Source: Micromonospora nigra (GTDB lineage: Bacteria > Actinomycetota > Actinomycetes > Mycobacteriales > Micromonosporaceae). From it: a stretch of DNA of 64,000 nt. The notes beneath the pieces were generated by a model. The model made no database searches. It was not told where the DNA came from and saw nothing but the letters and a program-made list of their open reading frames with translations. Positions 1 to 18,062 of this stretch are shown here, piece by piece. Numbering within the stretch: the stretch's first letter is position 1; each line of letters opens with the position of its first letter. A program made the position numbers and the translations under genes. Location: assembly GCF_900091585.1 (NCBI RefSeq), contig NZ_FMHT01000003.1, positions 1,845,501 through 1,909,500 of the forward strand, given 5' to 3'.

Positions 1-174
1 CTCCGGCGCGGCACCCGGGTACGGGGCCACGATGAAGGCGGCGGGGAACTCCAGCGAAGGCAGCAGTTGCTGCTTCAACGACGGTACGGCGTACACGCCG
101 AACGCCGTGGTCACCACCGCGATGAGGGCGACGAGCCCTCGGTTGGCGAGGCTGAATCTGGCGAGCAGCGACAT
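1..174 (-). CDS. RND-family efflux transporter permease, N-terminal fragment
   Basis: The 58 visible residues start MSLLARFSLANRG, followed by a hydrophobic helix (about residues 12-30) and a KQQLLPSLEFP segment. This is the usual N-terminus of AcrB/MMPL-like RND permeases: a cytoplasmic arm, TM1, then the first periplasmic-type loop. Such proteins export small molecules using the proton gradient. The gene runs off the left edge, so substrate and full length cannot be judged. It lies on the same strand as thrC, 191 nt downstream of it, with a tandem repeat between, and is probably a separate unit. The ATG start is the natural one for this family because it leaves a short basic arm before TM1. 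Confidence 0.75.
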   Translation of the reverse strand, partial: MSLLARFSLANRGLVALIAVVTTAFGVYAVPSLKQQLLPSLEFPAAFIVAPYPGAAPE

Positions 175-13715: not shown

Positions 13716-14975
13716 TCAGGTGCCGGCCGGGTAGGTCTCCATCTCACCGGGCGTGGTGAGGGCGGGCAGCGGGTGCAGCGCCGTCGTCTCGTCGCACCAG
13801 ATGAACGCGTCGTACCGCTCCCCCAGCCGGGTCGGCATGTAGTTGCCCCAGGCTTCGAACGACGGGTCGTAGACCACCCCGATGGCCCGGTGGTCCAGTG
13901 CGTCGGTGACCCAGCCGGGCTGGTCGGCGGGGTCACCGAAGACGAGCACCGCCCGCTCCGGCATCAGTTCGTGCAGCCGGTGTTCCACCGACCCGGGGCG
14001 GGCCGGCGGCACCAGCATGGCCTCGGCCGGTGAGCCCCACCGGGGCACGGCGGTCACCGTTCCCCGCCAACAGCCGAAGCCGACCAGGACGACCGCGTCC
14101 GAGCCGTGCCGTTCCCGGGCCAACTGGCCGATGTTGACCATCCCGTCGGCCGCCATGTCGGTGGCCCGCGCATCCCCGACGTGGGTGTTGTGGGCCCACA
14201 CGATCCCCCGGGCGCCGGGGCCGTGGCGGCTCAGCAGCCGGTCCAGAGTGTCGGCCATGTGGGTGTCGCGGACATTCCACGACTCCGGGCCGCCGCCCAC
14301 CATCGTCCGGTAGTAGCGCTCCGCGCCGGCGATCACCTCCGCGTTCTGCCAGGCCGCGAAGGCGGCGGGCCCGTCGACGGCGGCGTGTTCCCGGGTCCGG
14401 GTCAGCAGGCGGATCACCTCCTCCTCGCAGCGGGCGGAGACGAACCGGCTGGCGGTGCCGTACTCCTCGACCCGCTTGCCGTACGGCTCGAAGCACCGGT
14501 ACGCGTCCTGGGCGGCCTCCAGCGACGCCGGGTCCTCCTCGCCGACGTAGTCGAAGATCGCCCGCATCGACTCCCACAGGCTGTAGACGTCCAGCCCGTG
14601 GAAGCCGGCCCGGTCCTGCTCGGGTCGTTCCAGGTTCCACGCCCGCAGCCAACGGCAGAAGCGGGCCACCTCGGCGTTGGCCCACATCCAGGTCGGCCAT
14701 CGCTCGAAGCGTTCCAGCGCGGTCTGCGGCTCGGCCGCACCGCCCGGGGCGGCGACGACCGACCGGTGCACCCGTTCGCAGTCGGGCCAGTCCCCCTCGA
14801 CGGCGACGAAGGAGAAGCCGCACTCGGCGATGAGCCGCCGGGTGAGCTGCTCGCGGATCCGGTAGTAGTCGTAGCTGCCGTGCGTCGACTCGCCGATCAT
14901 CACCAGTCGGGCGTCCCGGACACGCTCCAGCAACGGGTCGAGGTCGCTCGGTGCGCCGAGCCGCTGAACCAGCAT
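13716..14975 (-). CDS. Erythromycin esterase family protein
   Basis: Protein of 419 aa of the EreA/EreB superfamily, whose characterised members hydrolyse the macrolide lactone; many homologues have unknown substrates. The active-site landmarks are present: GESTHG near residue 26 with the general-base His, VAVEGDWPDC near 55 with the conserved Glu, and WAHNTHVGD mid-protein with the second His. Length matches the family. The ATG at 14975 is 5 nt downstream of a TAGCCG box, suggesting a leaderless message. It is divergent from DUF2795 and lies about 370 bp from the Erm methylase gene. Macrolide hydrolysis is inferred only. Confidence 0.82.
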   Translation of the reverse strand: MLVQRLGAPSDLDPLLERVRDARLVMIGESTHGSYDYYRIREQLTRRLIAECGFSFVAVEGDWPDCERVHRSVVAAPGGAAEPQTALERFERWPTWMWANAEVARFCRWLRAWNLERPEQDRAGFHGLDVYSLWESMRAIFDYVGEEDPASLEAAQDAYRCFEPYGKRVEEYGTASRFVSARCEEEVIRLLTRTREHAAVDGPAAFAAWQNAEVIAGAERYYRTMVGGGPESWNVRDTHMADTLDRLLSRHGPGARGIVWAHNTHVGDARATDMAADGMVNIGQLARERHGSDAVVLVGFGCWRGTVTAVPRWGSPAEAMLVPPARPGSVEHRLHELMPERAVLVFGDPADQPGWVTDALDHRAIGVVYDPSFEAWGNYMPTRLGERYDAFIWCDETTALHPLPALTTPGEMETYPAGT

Positions 14976-14980
14976 GGTCG

Positions 14981-15060
14981 CGGCTACCCGTCGCGACGAG
15001 GGGCAAACGGGTGGGCGCGGCGCACCCGAGCGGCATGCCGCCCCGCTGAGCGGGTAGCCG
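14981..15060. promoter_or_regulatory. Mirrored divergent leaderless promoters
   Basis: The 10-mer CGGGTAGCCG occurs at 15051-15060 on the plus strand and as its exact inverse at 14981-14990. Each contains a TAGCCG -10-like box 5-6 nt before a start codon (DUF2795 ATG at 15067; esterase-like ATG at 14975). The symmetry suggests co-regulated divergent transcription; the 60 nt between could hold activator sites but none is obvious. Confidence 0.6.
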
Positions 15061-15066
15061 GGCGGC

Positions 15067-15258
15067 ATGACCGTCACCGGGGCGCAGTTGCAGGAGTACC
15101 TGGCCGGGCTCGACTACCCGGTCTCCCGCGAGGACCTGGTCCGGTGGGGCCAGGAGAACGGGGCGAGCACGGAGGCGCTGGCGCTGCTGCGGTCGCTGCC
15201 GGCCGTGGAGTTCGGCTCCCCGGCCGAGCTGGGCGAGGCGCTGGACATGCTGGCCTGA
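15067..15258 (+). CDS. DUF2795 small protein
   Basis: A 63-aa helical protein spanning the whole DUF2795 domain: LQEYLAGLDYPVSREDLVRWG, given in part, followed by AELGEALDML. The family is widespread in actinobacteria; its function is unknown, though the fold resembles small nucleic-acid-binding modules. The TAGCCG box 6 nt before the ATG suggests leaderless translation. It is divergent from the erythromycin-esterase family gene and may share its promoter region. Confidence 0.85.
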   Translation: MTVTGAQLQEYLAGLDYPVSREDLVRWGQENGASTEALALLRSLPAVEFGSPAELGEALDMLA

Positions 15259-15347
15259 GCAGCGGTAGCCGGCCGGAGCAGCGGCAGCCCGCCGGGGGCC
15301 GGCGACCTGGCCCGACCAGCGGCCACCACGGCCGGCCCGGTCGCCGG

Positions 15348-16145
15348 TCATCGGGCGTGCAGCAGACGGAACAGCACCAGCCACTGCTCCGGCCAGACGT
15401 GCCCCACCGGGGTCGCCGGGTCGAGCCGGGCGGCCCGCAGCACCGCCGCGAGCCGGGCCCGCGGATGCCGGCGCCCCAGCGAGGCCGCGAGCGAGCCGCC
15501 GACCCCGCCGAACCCGAGCTCCACCATCCTCTGGTACGCGGGCAGCGTGGCCGCCGGCAGCAACGGCTCCGGCCTACGGGCGATCCGCAGGATCCCGGCG
15601 TCCACCCGGGGCACCGGCCGGAAGGCCGTACGCGGCACCCGTCCCGCCAGCCGCCAGGTGAACTCCGGCCACGTCGAGACCGTCAACCGGCTCCAGCGGC
15701 CCTGGTCGCCGGCCCGGCGGCGGGCGTACTCCAGTTGGGTGAGCAGGGTCGCGGCGCGCAGCTCCGGCGCGGTGAGGCACCAGCGCACCACGGCCGAGGT
15801 CAACGACCAGGGGATGTTGCCGACCACCTCGAACGGTTCCGGCGGGACGGGTGCGGCGAGGAAGTCGGCCTGCCGGTGGGTGACGTTCGGCAGGGCCGCG
15901 CAGACCCGGGCCAGCGTCGCGCCGGCGGCCGGGTCGACCTCGTACGCGACCAGGTGCCCACACCGCGCGGCGAGCGGCCGGGTGAGCTGGCCGCGACCGG
16001 CCCCCACCTCCAGCAGCAGGCCGTGGGGGTCGGGTCGGGCGGCGTCGACCAGCCGGCCGATGGCCGCCGGGTCGGCGAGGAAGTTCTGGGACAGTACGCG
16101 ACGGGACCGGTCGCGTTCGGTCGTGCGGGTACGGCGGGGCGCCAC
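15348..16145 (-). CDS. erm: Erm-type 23S rRNA (adenine-N6)-methyltransferase
   Basis: SAM-dependent rRNA dimethylase of 265 aa. It has the Erm/KsgA start RRVLSQNFLADP, SAM motif I LEVGAGRGQLT, the acidic residue in YEVDPAAG, and the catalytic motif NIPWSLTS. A basic N-terminus and short length favour Erm (A2058 methylation, macrolide-lincosamide-streptogramin B resistance) over the housekeeping RsmA. The GTG at 16145 is chosen because AGGA precedes it by 7 nt; a further GTG at 16181 lacks a ribosome site. That AGGA is part of a hairpin and a short leader ORF lies upstream, so expression is probably attenuated. The nearby esterase-like gene fits a macrolide-resistance context. Confidence 0.85.
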   Translation of the reverse strand: MAPRRTRTTERDRSRRVLSQNFLADPAAIGRLVDAARPDPHGLLLEVGAGRGQLTRPLAARCGHLVAYEVDPAAGATLARVCAALPNVTHRQADFLAAPVPPEPFEVVGNIPWSLTSAVVRWCLTAPELRAATLLTQLEYARRRAGDQGRWSRLTVSTWPEFTWRLAGRVPRTAFRPVPRVDAGILRIARRPEPLLPAATLPAYQRMVELGFGGVGGSLAASLGRRHPRARLAAVLRAARLDPATPVGHVWPEQWLVLFRLLHAR

Positions 16146-16153
16146 GGGTTCGT

Positions 16154-16188
16154 CCTGTCTGTCGCACTCGGCGACGGGCACGGACAGG
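16154..16188 (-). promoter_or_regulatory. Hairpin sequestering the erm ribosome-binding site
   Basis: In the erm mRNA, CCTGTC (16188-16183) can pair with GACAGG (16159-16154), and an inner stem GTCGC/GCGAC (16175-16171 with 16165-16161) stacks within. The GACAGG arm contains the AGG of the AGGA ribosome site 7 nt before the GTG, so the folded form should block translation. Drug-induced stalling upstream would be needed to favour another fold. The structure is read by eye; no folding energy was computed. Confidence 0.6.
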
Positions 16189-16324
16189 CCGCGTCGGGGC
16201 CTGCCCGGTCAACGGGGACTCGGACGGCCCTGGTGGTGGCGCGGAGCTGATCCTTGGCACCGCAGATGCGCACCCCGCGCGGTCGCAGTGGCGTGGGTGT
16301 CGCGATGTGGTGGTCGGCGGTGGA

Positions 16325-16438
16325 TCAGACGCGGGTCGCGCCGGCCAGGGCCGGGCGCCGGAAGCGGGGGCGGACCGTGAGCCACGGCCCGAGGACGACC
16401 GGCGCACCGGCCACCTCGATCAGAGCGTGCGCGAACAT
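16325..16438 (-). CDS. Candidate erm leader peptide (leaderless 37-aa ORF)
   Basis: A 37-residue ORF, beginning MFAHALIEVAGAPVV, whose ATG lies 7 nt after a TAGGGT -10 box, so the ribosome would load on the 5' end. Residues 23-28 are RPRFRR, containing two Arg-X-Arg motifs; the +x+ pattern is known to cause macrolide-dependent ribosome arrest in some erm leader peptides. The stop is 179 nt upstream of erm, and the erm ribosome site is sequestered by a hairpin. The distance is longer than in classical systems, so a second regulatory element may lie between. It could also be an unrelated small protein. Confidence 0.5.
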   Translation of the reverse strand: MFAHALIEVAGAPVVLGPWLTVRPRFRRPALAGATRV

Positions 16439-16445
16439 GCGCCCG

Positions 16446-16451
16446 ACCCTA
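16446..16451 (-). promoter_or_regulatory. Probable -10 box for the erm leader transcript
   Basis: TAGGGT read on the minus strand, 7 nt before the leader ATG, matching the TANNNT-N6-7-start pattern seen at several other genes here. No convincing -35 is visible. The stretch 16452-16597, up to the Gfo/Idh stop, shows no gene. Confidence 0.6.
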
Positions 16452-16597
16452 CCGACGTCGACGTGCCCACTCGACCCGTTTCGTACAAGCCCGCCCGCAC
16501 CGGCTCGGCGGGGCGGCACGCCCGCCGCGCCGCGCCTGCCCCCCGGCCCCGCCTGCCCACCGACCGCGGGTGCCCCTGGCCGCGCCTGCCGCCCCCG

Positions 16598-17500
16598 TCA
16601 GGCCGGAAGGTCGACGGTGCGGGCCTCGGCGCGGGCGGTCTCGGCGGCGGCGAGCACCGCGACCACCTCGCGCCCGAAGCGGACGTCGCAGTGGTGGTCA
16701 CGGGTGCCCGAAGCGACCTCCGCCAGCAACTGGTCGATCGCCACCCCGAACGCCTCGGCCGCGCTGCCCGCACCGGGCGGCACGGCCTCGACCCCGTTGT
16801 CGCCGTAGAAGACGAACTCGTGGGCCGCCGCCGCAGGCGGCGCGTCGAGGGTGAGTGACACGGTGCTCGTGGCACCGCCGTCGTGACCGAGCAGCAGGTG
16901 CACCAGCCCCCTCGGGCCGTCCGACGCCGCCACCCGGTTCACCCGGCCGAGCACCGGCAGGAGGATCGACAGGGCGTGCGGCCCGATGTCCCAGAGCGCG
17001 CCGTGCCGCCGACGCCAGAGCGAGCCCCCGTACGGGCTGCCGGGCTGGAAGATCGACCCGAACCGGACCGCGTGCGCGGTGTGCCACCCCCCGGCGGCTG
17101 CTGCCGAGGCGAGGAAGCCGGCGACATCCGGCTGGTAACGGGCGGTGAAGAAGACCACCGAGGCGACCCCGGCCCGCCCGGCCTCGGCGACCACCCGGTC
17201 GGCGTCGGCGACAGTCAGCGCCAGGGGCTTGTCCAGCAGCAGGTGACGGCCGGCGGACGCCGCCCGGGTGGCGATGCCGGCCTGCACGTCCGGCGGCAGG
17301 GCGACGGCCACCGCGTCACACGCCTCGATCAGGGCGTCGACGTCGTCGTACGCCGGGACGCCGTACCGCTGGGCGAGGGCGGTGGCCCTGCCGGGGTCGC
17401 GTCCCCAGACGCCGGCGAGCGTGGCCGCCGGGTGCGCGTCGAGCGCCGCGCCGTGCGTCTCCGCCGCCCAGTGTCCCGTGCCGAACAACCCGAACCGCAC
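16598..17500 (-). CDS. Gfo/Idh/MocA family oxidoreductase
   Basis: NAD(P)-dependent dehydrogenase of 300 aa acting on a sugar, inositol or similar polyol; the substrate is not identifiable. The N-terminal Rossmann motif is FGLFGTGHWAAETHG (residues 3-17), the family motif (E/D)KP appears as LLDKPLAL near residue 92, and the C-terminal alpha/beta domain begins near 120 with a DIGPHAL segment. The GTG start has an ideal AGGAGG six nt upstream. It is transcribed alone, toward erm. Confidence 0.9.
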   Translation of the reverse strand: MRFGLFGTGHWAAETHGAALDAHPAATLAGVWGRDPGRATALAQRYGVPAYDDVDALIEACDAVAVALPPDVQAGIATRAASAGRHLLLDKPLALTVADADRVVAEAGRAGVASVVFFTARYQPDVAGFLASAAAAGGWHTAHAVRFGSIFQPGSPYGGSLWRRRHGALWDIGPHALSILLPVLGRVNRVAASDGPRGLVHLLLGHDGGATSTVSLTLDAPPAAAAHEFVFYGDNGVEAVPPGAGSAAEAFGVAIDQLLAEVASGTRDHHCDVRFGREVVAVLAAAETARAEARTVDLPA

Positions 17501-17607
17501 GTTGTGCCTCCTCTGCCCTCGTGCCGGCGTGGGTCCATCCTGTCGGGTGTCGCGCCGGCCCCACCGCCCGGGGGCGGACCGGGTGGGTGGGGCTGCGGTG
17601 GGGCTTG

Positions 17608-17628
17608 TACTACGGGGGTTAGTAGAGT
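17608..17628 (+). promoter_or_regulatory. Leaderless promoter with overlapping BlaI-like palindrome
   Basis: TAGAGT at 17623-17628 is followed by six nt and GTG at 17635. Overlapping it is an inverted repeat, TACTAC-N5-TTAGTA (17608-17624), one base from the TACTAC-N5-GTAGTA pattern bound by BlaI/CopY-type repressors. No such regulator is encoded in the window. Repression by steric block of the -10 would be expected. Confidence 0.55.
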
Positions 17629-17634
17629 GGTGCG

Positions 17635-17667
17635 GTGACCGACATGCGCGCCGGGTGGAGCCGGTGA
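17635..17667 (+). CDS. Ten-residue leaderless upstream ORF coupled to the next gene
   Basis: GTG-initiated ORF encoding MTDMRAGWSR, whose TGA overlaps the GTG of the membrane-protein gene (GTGA at 17664-17667). Since the membrane-protein gene has no usable Shine-Dalgarno of its own, ribosomes finishing the peptide probably restart there. It may be only a loading device or a sensing peptide. Confidence 0.5.
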   Translation: MTDMRAGWSR

Positions 17668-18062
17668 CCAGCGCGGCGGCCGTGGGCGGCTCGCCGGTGG
17701 ACGGTCTGCTCGCGACCGCCTCGATCGTGCTGTCCCTGCTCGTCGCCGCCTGGGCGCTGGTGTCCACGCTGCGTCACCGCGCCCCGGACCGCGTCCAGCT
17801 GATCGGGCTGGCGGTGCTGGAGTTGGCGCTGCTCGCGTTGACCGTGCTGGCGCTCGTCGCCCTGGCCGGTGGTGACCGGCCGGGCGAGCCCGGTGCCTTC
17901 TTCGGCTACCTGGTGACGCTGCTGTGCCTGCCGCCGCTGGCCGCGGTGCTCGCCCGGATGGAACCGACCCGGTGGGGCTCGGCCATCGTCTGCGCGGTCT
18001 GCCTGGTGCTCCCCGTGGTGGTGGTCCGGCTCCAGCAGACCTGGGCGGTGCTCGGTGGCTGA
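17664..18062 (+). CDS. Four-TM integral membrane protein
   Basis: A 132-aa hydrophobic protein with about four TM helices (near residues 14-34, 45-70, 80-97 and 105-125). I do not recognise a named family beyond the small actinobacterial membrane proteins often paired with a second one. The GTG start overlaps the stop of the 10-aa upstream ORF, and the 3' end overlaps the next gene by 8 nt, so all three are translationally linked. A BlaI-like operator lies in the promoter. Confidence 0.72.
   Translation: MTSAAAVGGSPVDGLLATASIVLSLLVAAWALVSTLRHRAPDRVQLIGLAVLELALLALTVLALVALAGGDRPGEPGAFFGYLVTLLCLPPLAAVLARMEPTRWGSAIVCAVCLVLPVVVVRLQQTWAVLGG

Follow-up and report, generated by a model that had tools for sequence, protein, structure and literature searches.

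A predicted two-tier control region with a WhiB7-type promoter and a leaderless leader ORF upstream of a chromosomal erm gene in Micromonospora

The erm locus and its surroundings

The window analysed here, a stretch of 64,000 nucleotides from Micromonospora nigra (contig NZ_FMHT01000003.1), carries an erm gene on its minus strand (Table 1). Its product scores 345.6 bits against the NCBIfam model NF000337 (cut-off 320) and 148.7 bits against PF00398. The genes on either side, one for a PF05139 esterase-family protein and one for a Gfo/Idh protein, keep a conserved order: erm is flanked by a PF05139 gene in 35 of 54 loci and by a Gfo/Idh gene in 34 of 54, and all of these loci belong to Micromonospora, Verrucosispora, Salinispora or Micromonosporaceae KJ-029. 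This conserved synteny suggests that the site of erm resembles a core chromosomal place rather than a macrolide cluster. The esterase, which the initial annotation had taken to strengthen the macrolide context, adds little to it, since the protein matches PF05139 at 406.2 bits and the EreB model at only 25.2 bits, far under the cut-off of 750.

Two further observations concern the neighbourhood and the genome. A small ORF on the opposite strand between erm and the esterase gene (MTVTGAQLQEYLAGLDYPVSRED..., at about 15069-15263 (+), read by eye) encodes what we take to be a DUF2795-like protein, and another Erm/KsgA-type match in the same genome (G000:C3:3883460-3884185, locus L002), 37% identical, is presumably the housekeeping 16S enzyme. 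A search for Rfam matches gave none in 14000-18000 up to an E-value of 1.

Table 1. Features of the erm locus and its upstream region, in window coordinates.
Feature	Position	Strand	Basis or remark
PF05139 esterase-family gene, flanking erm	13716-14975	-	
erm, 23S rRNA (adenine-2058) methyltransferase, ErmE/H/O/R type, GTG start	15348..16145	-	NF000337, PF00398
erm ribosome site AGGA	16156-16153	-	ahead of GTG 16145
Hairpin 3:4, CCTGTC (16188-16183) with GACAGG (16159-16154)	16188-16154	-	can pair in 33/33 sequences; hides erm ribosome site
Inner hairpin D, GTCGC/GCGAC	16175-16161	-	99.5% paired, one two-sided change
Hairpin 2:3 (open state), GGGCAGGCC with GGCCTGTCC	16206-16182	-	98.9% of cells paired, 33 sequences
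Hairpin 1:2 (closed state)	16230-16197	-	97.5% of cells paired, 33 sequences
Segment 1a, CCAGGGCCG	16233-16225	-	partner of segment 0
Segment 0, CGGCCCTGG	16353-16345	-	inside ORF just past R-x-R; begins at P+16 of predicted stalled ribosome; perfect complement of segment 1a
RFR, second R-x-R motif of leader	16366-16358	-	
Arg-Pro-Arg, codons 23-25, predicted macrolide stall	16372-16364	-	P site Pro24 = 16369-16367
Leader ORF, 37 codons, predicted leaderless, with RPRFRR	16438-16325	-	ATG at 16438; sequence MFAHALIEVAGAPVVLGPWLTVRPRFRRPALAGATRV
-10 box TAGGGT (TANNNT)	16451-16446	-	7 nt 5' of leader ATG; read directly
-35-like element GTCGAG	16470..16475	-	18 nt 5' of -10; column counts over 50 loci
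A/T-rich element AAA, WhiB7-type promoter	16479..16481	-	column counts over 50 loci and published motif
Gfo/Idh gene, flanking erm	16598-17494	-	

A WhiB7-type promoter adjoins a predicted leaderless ORF

Direct reading bears out what had first been described upstream of erm: a TAGGGT box 7 nt ahead of a 37-aa ORF that encodes RPRFRR, with 179 nt between the stop codon of this ORF and erm. The leader as a whole begins 293 nt upstream of the gene. Attenuators of the ErmC type have a classical leadered uORF with its own Shine-Dalgarno sequence; here a -10 box stands instead, 7 nt before the ATG. It is this difference, a -10 box as opposed to a Shine-Dalgarno sequence, that distinguishes leaderless from leadered genes according to PMC4633059.

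The promoter has the layout of a WhiB7 promoter, with an A/T-rich element 3 nt before the -35 element and a TANNNT -10 box, although the -35 element of the window reads GTCGAG and not TTG. Counted in columns relative to the -10 box over 50 loci, A occurs at -30 in 46 and at -29 in 48, while T occurs at -23 in 40 and G at -21 in 39. An AT-rich sequence 3 bp upstream of -35 is also described for the WhiB7 sites of M. abscessus, whose erm41 gene is placed in the direct WhiB7 regulon (both in portions of PMC10727445). A search for classical sigma-70 promoter-like sites found none in 16100-16620. The genome itself encodes a small WhiB protein with an RGRP hook (G000:C3:1962325-1962474, locus L083), which may be WhiB7 and may be active at the erm promoter. 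Within L083, no ORF of at least 8 codons behind a TANNNT box (TANNNT-6..8-RTG) was seen upstream of the whiB7-like gene.

The leader ORF is shared by most actinobacterial erm loci compared

Loci for comparison came from two sources. One scan of genome contigs gave 73 loci. In addition, 394 genomes of the class were searched at E 1e-40; 42 of them had an erm match, and 30 loci, including the window, were retrieved from these. The resulting set of 93 loci consists of 63 of the 73, the window and the 29 remaining loci of the class search. Nine of the ten loci outside this set are distant matches (L066-L069 and L071-L075; 28-34% identity) that were used as controls; the tenth, L076, a match of 22 residues, was unused. 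We refer to Micromonospora, two Verrucosispora (L015, L041) and Micromonosporaceae KJ-029 (L004) as the genus set; Salinispora (L037) is included as well in the folding tests and in alignment A1.

A scan of 51 loci and the window, with L019, L022 and L056 omitted, found an ATG-initiated ORF of at least 15 codons, 6/7 nt behind a TANNNT box and at most 500 nt upstream of erm, in 47 of the 52, compared with a mean of 0.21 loci and a maximum of 2 in dinucleotide shuffles. The macrolide stall motif R/K-x-R/K (+x+) was present in 44 of these 47 ORFs, and a leader ORF was also found in 24 of the 29 loci from the class search (window excluded). We then applied a uniform rule (TANNNT, 6-8 nt, ATG or GTG, at least 10 codons, +x+, within 600 nt), which was passed by 83 of the 93 actinobacterial erm loci (shuffles: mean 1.65, maximum 7); with three consecutive A/T near -30, before the -35 element, added to the rule, 77 of 93 passed (shuffles: mean 0.24, maximum 2). 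The architecture is shared beyond Micromonospora, and the pattern extends to Amycolatopsis (MGAAFAAYAVTRLRNA) and Catenulispora (MCCNALFIRIRL). Among the nine distant controls, two had a +x+ ORF behind a TANNNT box and none had the A/T-rich element as well. Two of these controls, L071 and L074, are actinobacterial MAGs that have no leader ORF by this rule; counting them in brings the total to 83 of 95.

We give hardly any credence to the idea that the leader ORF arose by chance in G+C-rich DNA and that its Arg-rich peptide has no role. Residue shuffling leaves +x+ in 53% of the leader peptides, so R-x-R alone proves little, but an ORF behind a -10 box is kept across many genera, against the shuffle means of 0.21 and 1.65 loci in the two scans.

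The ten loci that fail the uniform rule are L016, L030, L040, L022, L056, L085, L094, L096, L107 and L113. The first three have the ORF with RPW in place of RPR, and the upstream sequence of L022 is cut short. The erm gene of Micromonospora thermarum (L056) shows neither leader ORF nor attenuator in the 1200 nt upstream, which reflects either a loss or an assembly or reading-frame problem. At the Catenulispora and Amycolatopsis erm genes (L057-L065), the candidate leaderless ORFs are only 12-16 codons long and end at most 2 codons from R-I-R or R-L-R.

The arginine codons of the leader are under purifying selection

Thirty-five genus-set leaders, chosen by an Arg-motif filter, were aligned; an unfiltered scan added no genus-set leader beyond them. 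Arg23, Arg27 and Arg28 are present in 35/35 and Arg25 in 33/35, the last encoded by four synonymous codons. The ratio pN/pS is 0.21 over codons 23-28 and 0.34 over codons 22-29, compared with 0.82 across the entire ORF; the two shifted frames give 0.98-1.13. The last ten codons have a pN/pS of 1.60, with the synonymous sites more conserved, which pointed to a constraint on the RNA. Codon 25, the A-site Arg of RPR (16366-16364 in the window), is CGA in 16 of the 35 leaders, a codon that is rare in five neighbouring genes (5 of 166 Arg codons); the window itself uses CGC at this position.

The erm leader can form two mutually exclusive sets of pairings

The hairpin at 16154-16188 that the initial annotation had placed over the erm ribosome site, with GACAGG as the arm that contains its AGG, is indeed there, and proved to belong to a larger alternative structure that also includes hairpins 1:2 and 2:3. 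The GACAGG arm overlaps the AGGA of the ribosome site. The pairings exclude one another: 1:2 together with 3:4 hides the ribosome site (16159-16153), while 0:1 together with 2:3 exposes it. The partners of the 0:1 helix, segments 0 and 1a, lie 111 nt apart in the window.

Both sets are conserved in alignment A1, whose 33 rows omit L025, L027 and L028 (rearranged segments 2/3) and the loci outside Micromonospora, Verrucosispora, KJ-029 and Salinispora; erm starts with ATG or GTG in all 33. Over these sequences, 98.2% of cells are paired in the open set (0:1, 2:3, D) and 98.6% in the closed set (1:2, 3:4, D), compared with 28.9-46.4% when both sets are slid by 1-3 columns. Two of the nine pairs of the 0:1 helix are broken in 5 of the 33 sequences. 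Since nearly every paired column is fixed, A1 shows hardly any covariation: the one two-sided change lies in D. Of the three rearranged loci, L025 and L028 change segments 2 and 3 jointly (GGACCGC with GCGGTCC), which keeps 2:3 and weakens 3:4, and L027 keeps neither 2:3 nor 3:4 well.

Hairpins of this kind could also act in transcriptional attenuation, with 2:3 (or 3:4) as a terminator and a stalled ribosome switching the RNA to 1:2 as the antiterminator, in the manner of whiB7/wblC and several ABC-F genes. Terminators under uORF control are reported for actinobacterial whiB7 and for lmrC, vgaA, msrD and others. We nevertheless regard this explanation as unlikely: 16100-16620 contains no terminator-like site (stem plus T run) by a search that is blind to Rho terminators and to those free of a T run, and it is the erm ribosome site itself that is hidden, by a helix that can form in 33/33 sequences.

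A segment near the predicted leading edge covaries with the erm leader

We set the P site at the codon of x in the first R-x-R and scored, for 12-nt windows at set offsets from it, the best contiguous helix with the downstream leader, comparing each native leader with those of all other loci. Whole-leader duplex energies were discarded as a covariation test because long G+C-rich duplexes dominated them (17 loci; 145 of 20000 permutations as low); the best contiguous helix was used instead and gave 43 of 50000 permutations as low as native for the same number of loci. When 40 loci were compared over the 24-nt stretch from P+13, none of 100000 permutations was as low as native. The signal was confined to a narrow range of offsets: windows starting at P+12, P+15 and P+18 gave z-scores of -5.6, -5.2 and -3.9 (0/5000 each), while the strongest of 17 other starts between -24 and +33 were P+3 (z -2.5, 38/5000) and P+33 (z -2.1, 96/5000). 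It was also present among 26 dissimilar loci with leader peptides less than 50% alike, where the window P+15..26 gave z -4.9 (0/5000), nine other windows had |z| below 2, and the 24-nt stretch gave 0/20000. Against letter-shuffled segments, 5 of 17 loci reached 0.05 individually, so that the strength of the signal sits in the set and not in single loci.

The best helix starts between P+13 and P+19 in 30 of the 40 loci, with arms separated by 23 to 266 nt, and later, at P+22 to P+30, in the other ten (L037, L045, L055, L088, L091, L099, L105, L106, L111 and L112). It is built from different letters in different loci, for example GGCCCCGGCGA with TCGCCGGGGCC in L042, GCCCTGACCGG with CCGGTCAGGGC in L103, GCCGGACCGGT with GCCGGTCCGGC in L092 and GCCCTGGAC with GTCCAGGGC in L070. 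On these comparisons, the complementarity between segment 0 and the leader is species-specific, with the segment placed near the leading edge that a ribosome stalled on R-x-R would have. In the short leaders of Amycolatopsis and Catenulispora, the stop codon lies at P+9 or P+12 and the candidate segment (start P+13 to P+18) falls at the edge of the stop codon or past it, the latter in Catenulispora with its sensor ORF of only 12 codons. Should these candidates hold, the pairing would be anchored to the stall codon and not to the end of the ORF.

These results bear on whether the WhiB7-type promoter alone could regulate erm, leaving the leader ORF and the hairpins as by-products or as effects on mRNA stability. 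The promoter element is strong and erm41 of M. abscessus is listed in the direct WhiB7 regulon (PMC10727445), but the R-x-R codons are under purifying selection and 0:1 pairs in a species-specific way at an almost constant distance from the stall codon. Both observations argue for a role coupled to the ribosome, and we consider regulation by the promoter alone very unlikely.

Folding models favour opening of the ribosome site by a stalled ribosome

The leading edge of a ribosome usually lies at +16. ErmDL stalls at codon 7, the middle of its R-L-R (as given in part of PMC8298421), and a similar placement on RPR puts Pro24 (nt 70-72) in the P site and the +16 edge at nt 86, the first base of segment 0. 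With a ribosome placed there, the minimum-energy fold of the window contains 0:1, 2:3 and D and leaves GACAGG unpaired, with the ACG at its end in a three-pair hairpin. With the ribosome at the stop codon, modelled by folding from 9 nt past it, 1:2 forms and GACAGGA is mostly paired; the site is held by segment 3 through GGAC (16155-16152) and GTCC (16185-16182), a register shifted from that of hairpin 3:4. The naked leader closes in this way too, and its whole-leader fold shows no excess stability (z -0.77). The modelled cost of opening the ribosome site in the window is 2.1 kcal/mol for the stall on RPR, 5.9 for the stop state, 4.3 for the naked leader and 4.7 for a stall on RFR.

Extending the whole-leader model to other loci, and counting only changes above 0.5 kcal/mol, the site was cheaper to open in the stall state than in the stop state for 21 of the 36 genus-set loci and more costly for 4; the corresponding figures beyond the genus set, where some ribosome sites are uncertain, were 8 and 2 of 12. 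Loci L039, L046, L047 and L050, in which the patterns used identified no ribosome site, were left out of this model. A second test, in which segment 1a was kept unpaired within a short core, omitted L045, L050 and L055. At the same threshold, this block lowered the opening cost in 31 of 36 genus-set loci and raised it in none, and outside the genus set it helped in 8 of 13 and hurt in 2. With 40 nt of extra upstream sequence, the cost rose in 2 of 36 (L007, L035). The mean change was -2.27 kcal/mol for the 1a block versus -0.57 for other 9-nt blocks, of which a median of 16% open the site more than 1a does.

The structure model rests on single-sequence folds and pair counts, against which the RNAalifold result has to be weighed: on the aligned core, RNAalifold gave 1:2 when the sequence was free, but with 1a blocked segment 3 stayed on the ribosome site and 2:3 did not form. 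The mutually exclusive pairings, one of which hides the ribosome site, are in silico structures, and the consensus fold lacks the switch between them. Taken together, the models support a polarity in which a stall opens the site, fairly well in the genus set and moderately elsewhere.

The opposite polarity would have the stalled ribosome cover segment 0 and prevent its pairing with 1a, so that the drug closes the site or the leader senses a loss of its own translation. A stall on RFR, with Phe26 in the P site, does reach nt 92, covers most of segment 0 and predicts the closed form, as reflected in its opening cost of 4.7 as against 2.1 kcal/mol for RPR. We rate this arrangement as distinctly unlikely, however: the covarying segment starts near the leading edge for the first R-x-R, a number of relatives carry a single R-x-R only, and a drug that represses erm makes little sense.

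Proposed mechanism

We consider it probable that the region switches a chromosomal erm gene in response to drug at two tiers, through a WhiB7-type promoter and a leaderless attenuator, where stalling, the leaderless start and induction are what we infer from sequence and folding models. Transcription from the promoter would start at the A of the leader ATG and lead to leaderless translation of the leader ORF. Following the known R/K-x-R/K rule, a macrolide-bound ribosome would stall as R-P-R enters the catalytic centre, with its edge at the start of segment 0. This segment, left free, could then capture segment 1a, a pairing for which covariation among genera argues, probably while transcription is still under way. 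With 1a occupied, 1:2 would be blocked and segment 2 would pair with 3, freeing the ribosome site of segment 3 and allowing erm to be translated, a step consistent with the folding results and with the conservation of both states. When drug is absent, the ribosome would instead pass segment 0 and reach the stop codon, 1:2 and 3:4 would form and erm would be off; segment 0 may be kept from 1a under these conditions by passing ribosomes, by a local stem with codons 13-14, or by 1:2 forming first. The presence of +x+ alone does not fix which macrolides act here, because erythromycin stalls ErmDL fairly well without +x+ even though telithromycin strictly requires it (both from part of PMC8298421).

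Comparison across genomes largely supports the initial reading of this locus as a macrolide-sensing attenuator of a leaderless variety. The ORF, its R-x-R block, the -10 spacing and the ribosome-site helix (33/33) are conserved in relatives, and the conservation check proposed with that reading thus came out in its favour. That reading had missed the WhiB7-type promoter element, the 1:2/2:3 alternatives and the long-range pairing that bridges the roughly 110 nt between the predicted stall site and the erm hairpins.

Implications for macrolide resistance in actinobacteria

Whether one ancestral control system for erm runs through much of the actinobacteria is a matter on which we are evenly divided. 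Such a system would combine a WhiB7-type promoter, a leaderless R-x-R sensor ORF and a leading-edge segment that is presented, not masked, with a relay over about 20 to 270 nt to the erm ribosome site; this range derives from the 30 of 40 loci with an early helix start, and the relay covaries among genera. A single shared system runs against the view in PMC11264731, parts of which describe an ORF finder search of about 250 bp upstream, uORFs in part of the erm family, and independent origins of uORFs and palindromes with no common pattern. The leader of the window starts 293 nt upstream of erm and lies outside that range.

Our observations suggest that many actinobacteria gate their chromosomal macrolide resistance through a common type of sensor and not through independent sensors, and that a single gene may carry two layers of drug sensing, WhiB7 and a ribosome stalled on a leaderless ORF. 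The offset between stall codon and segment is nearly fixed, and this provides a simple, testable rule for finding more drug-sensing leaders, which ORF searches of about 250 bp such as that described in PMC11264731 could miss, and the erm leader may serve as a naturally occurring model in which to study how drugs stall ribosomes on leaderless mRNA.

Comparison with known systems

A full-text search of open-licence papers brought up none that, judged by title, opening of the abstract or passages, describes a leaderless WhiB7-type erm leader in Micromonospora or a stall-anchored 0:1 pairing. Part of the leader design may be known already for Streptomyces, where ermSV and ermSF have inducible leaders: the leader peptides of L048, L100 and L103 (...GLGRG...RxRRxPGALTGPG...) resemble the ErmSV leader, and ermSV is reportedly induced by 16-membered macrolides, to judge from the title of a 1997 paper by Kamimiya and Weisblum.

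Two other parallels lie in actinobacteria. Like the whiB7/wblC uORF attenuator outlined in part of PMC10727445, the erm leader is actinobacterial, is linked to ribosome-targeting drugs and appears to rely on uORF stalling, but that attenuator works through a terminator, for which 16100-16620 offers no candidate. It also resembles the leaderless small ORFs of mycobacteria, in which a -10 box lies beside an ATG or GTG at the transcript start and which are robustly translated according to portions of PMC4633059; the word erm occurs 0 times in the main text of that paper.

With attenuators of the ErmC, ErmB and ErmD type, the element shares a short uORF, a macrolide stall motif and alternative hairpins by which the erm ribosome site is either masked or released (parts of PMC13410324 and PMC11264731; R-L-R of ErmDL in part of PMC8298421). 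Unlike these, it has a -10 box of a WhiB7-type promoter at the place of the Shine-Dalgarno sequence, and its erm hairpins lie about 110 nt past the predicted stall site, reached by way of an additional 0:1 pairing from the leading edge of the ribosome. We predict that the element works as a leaderless, WhiB7-type form of the Erm translational attenuator.
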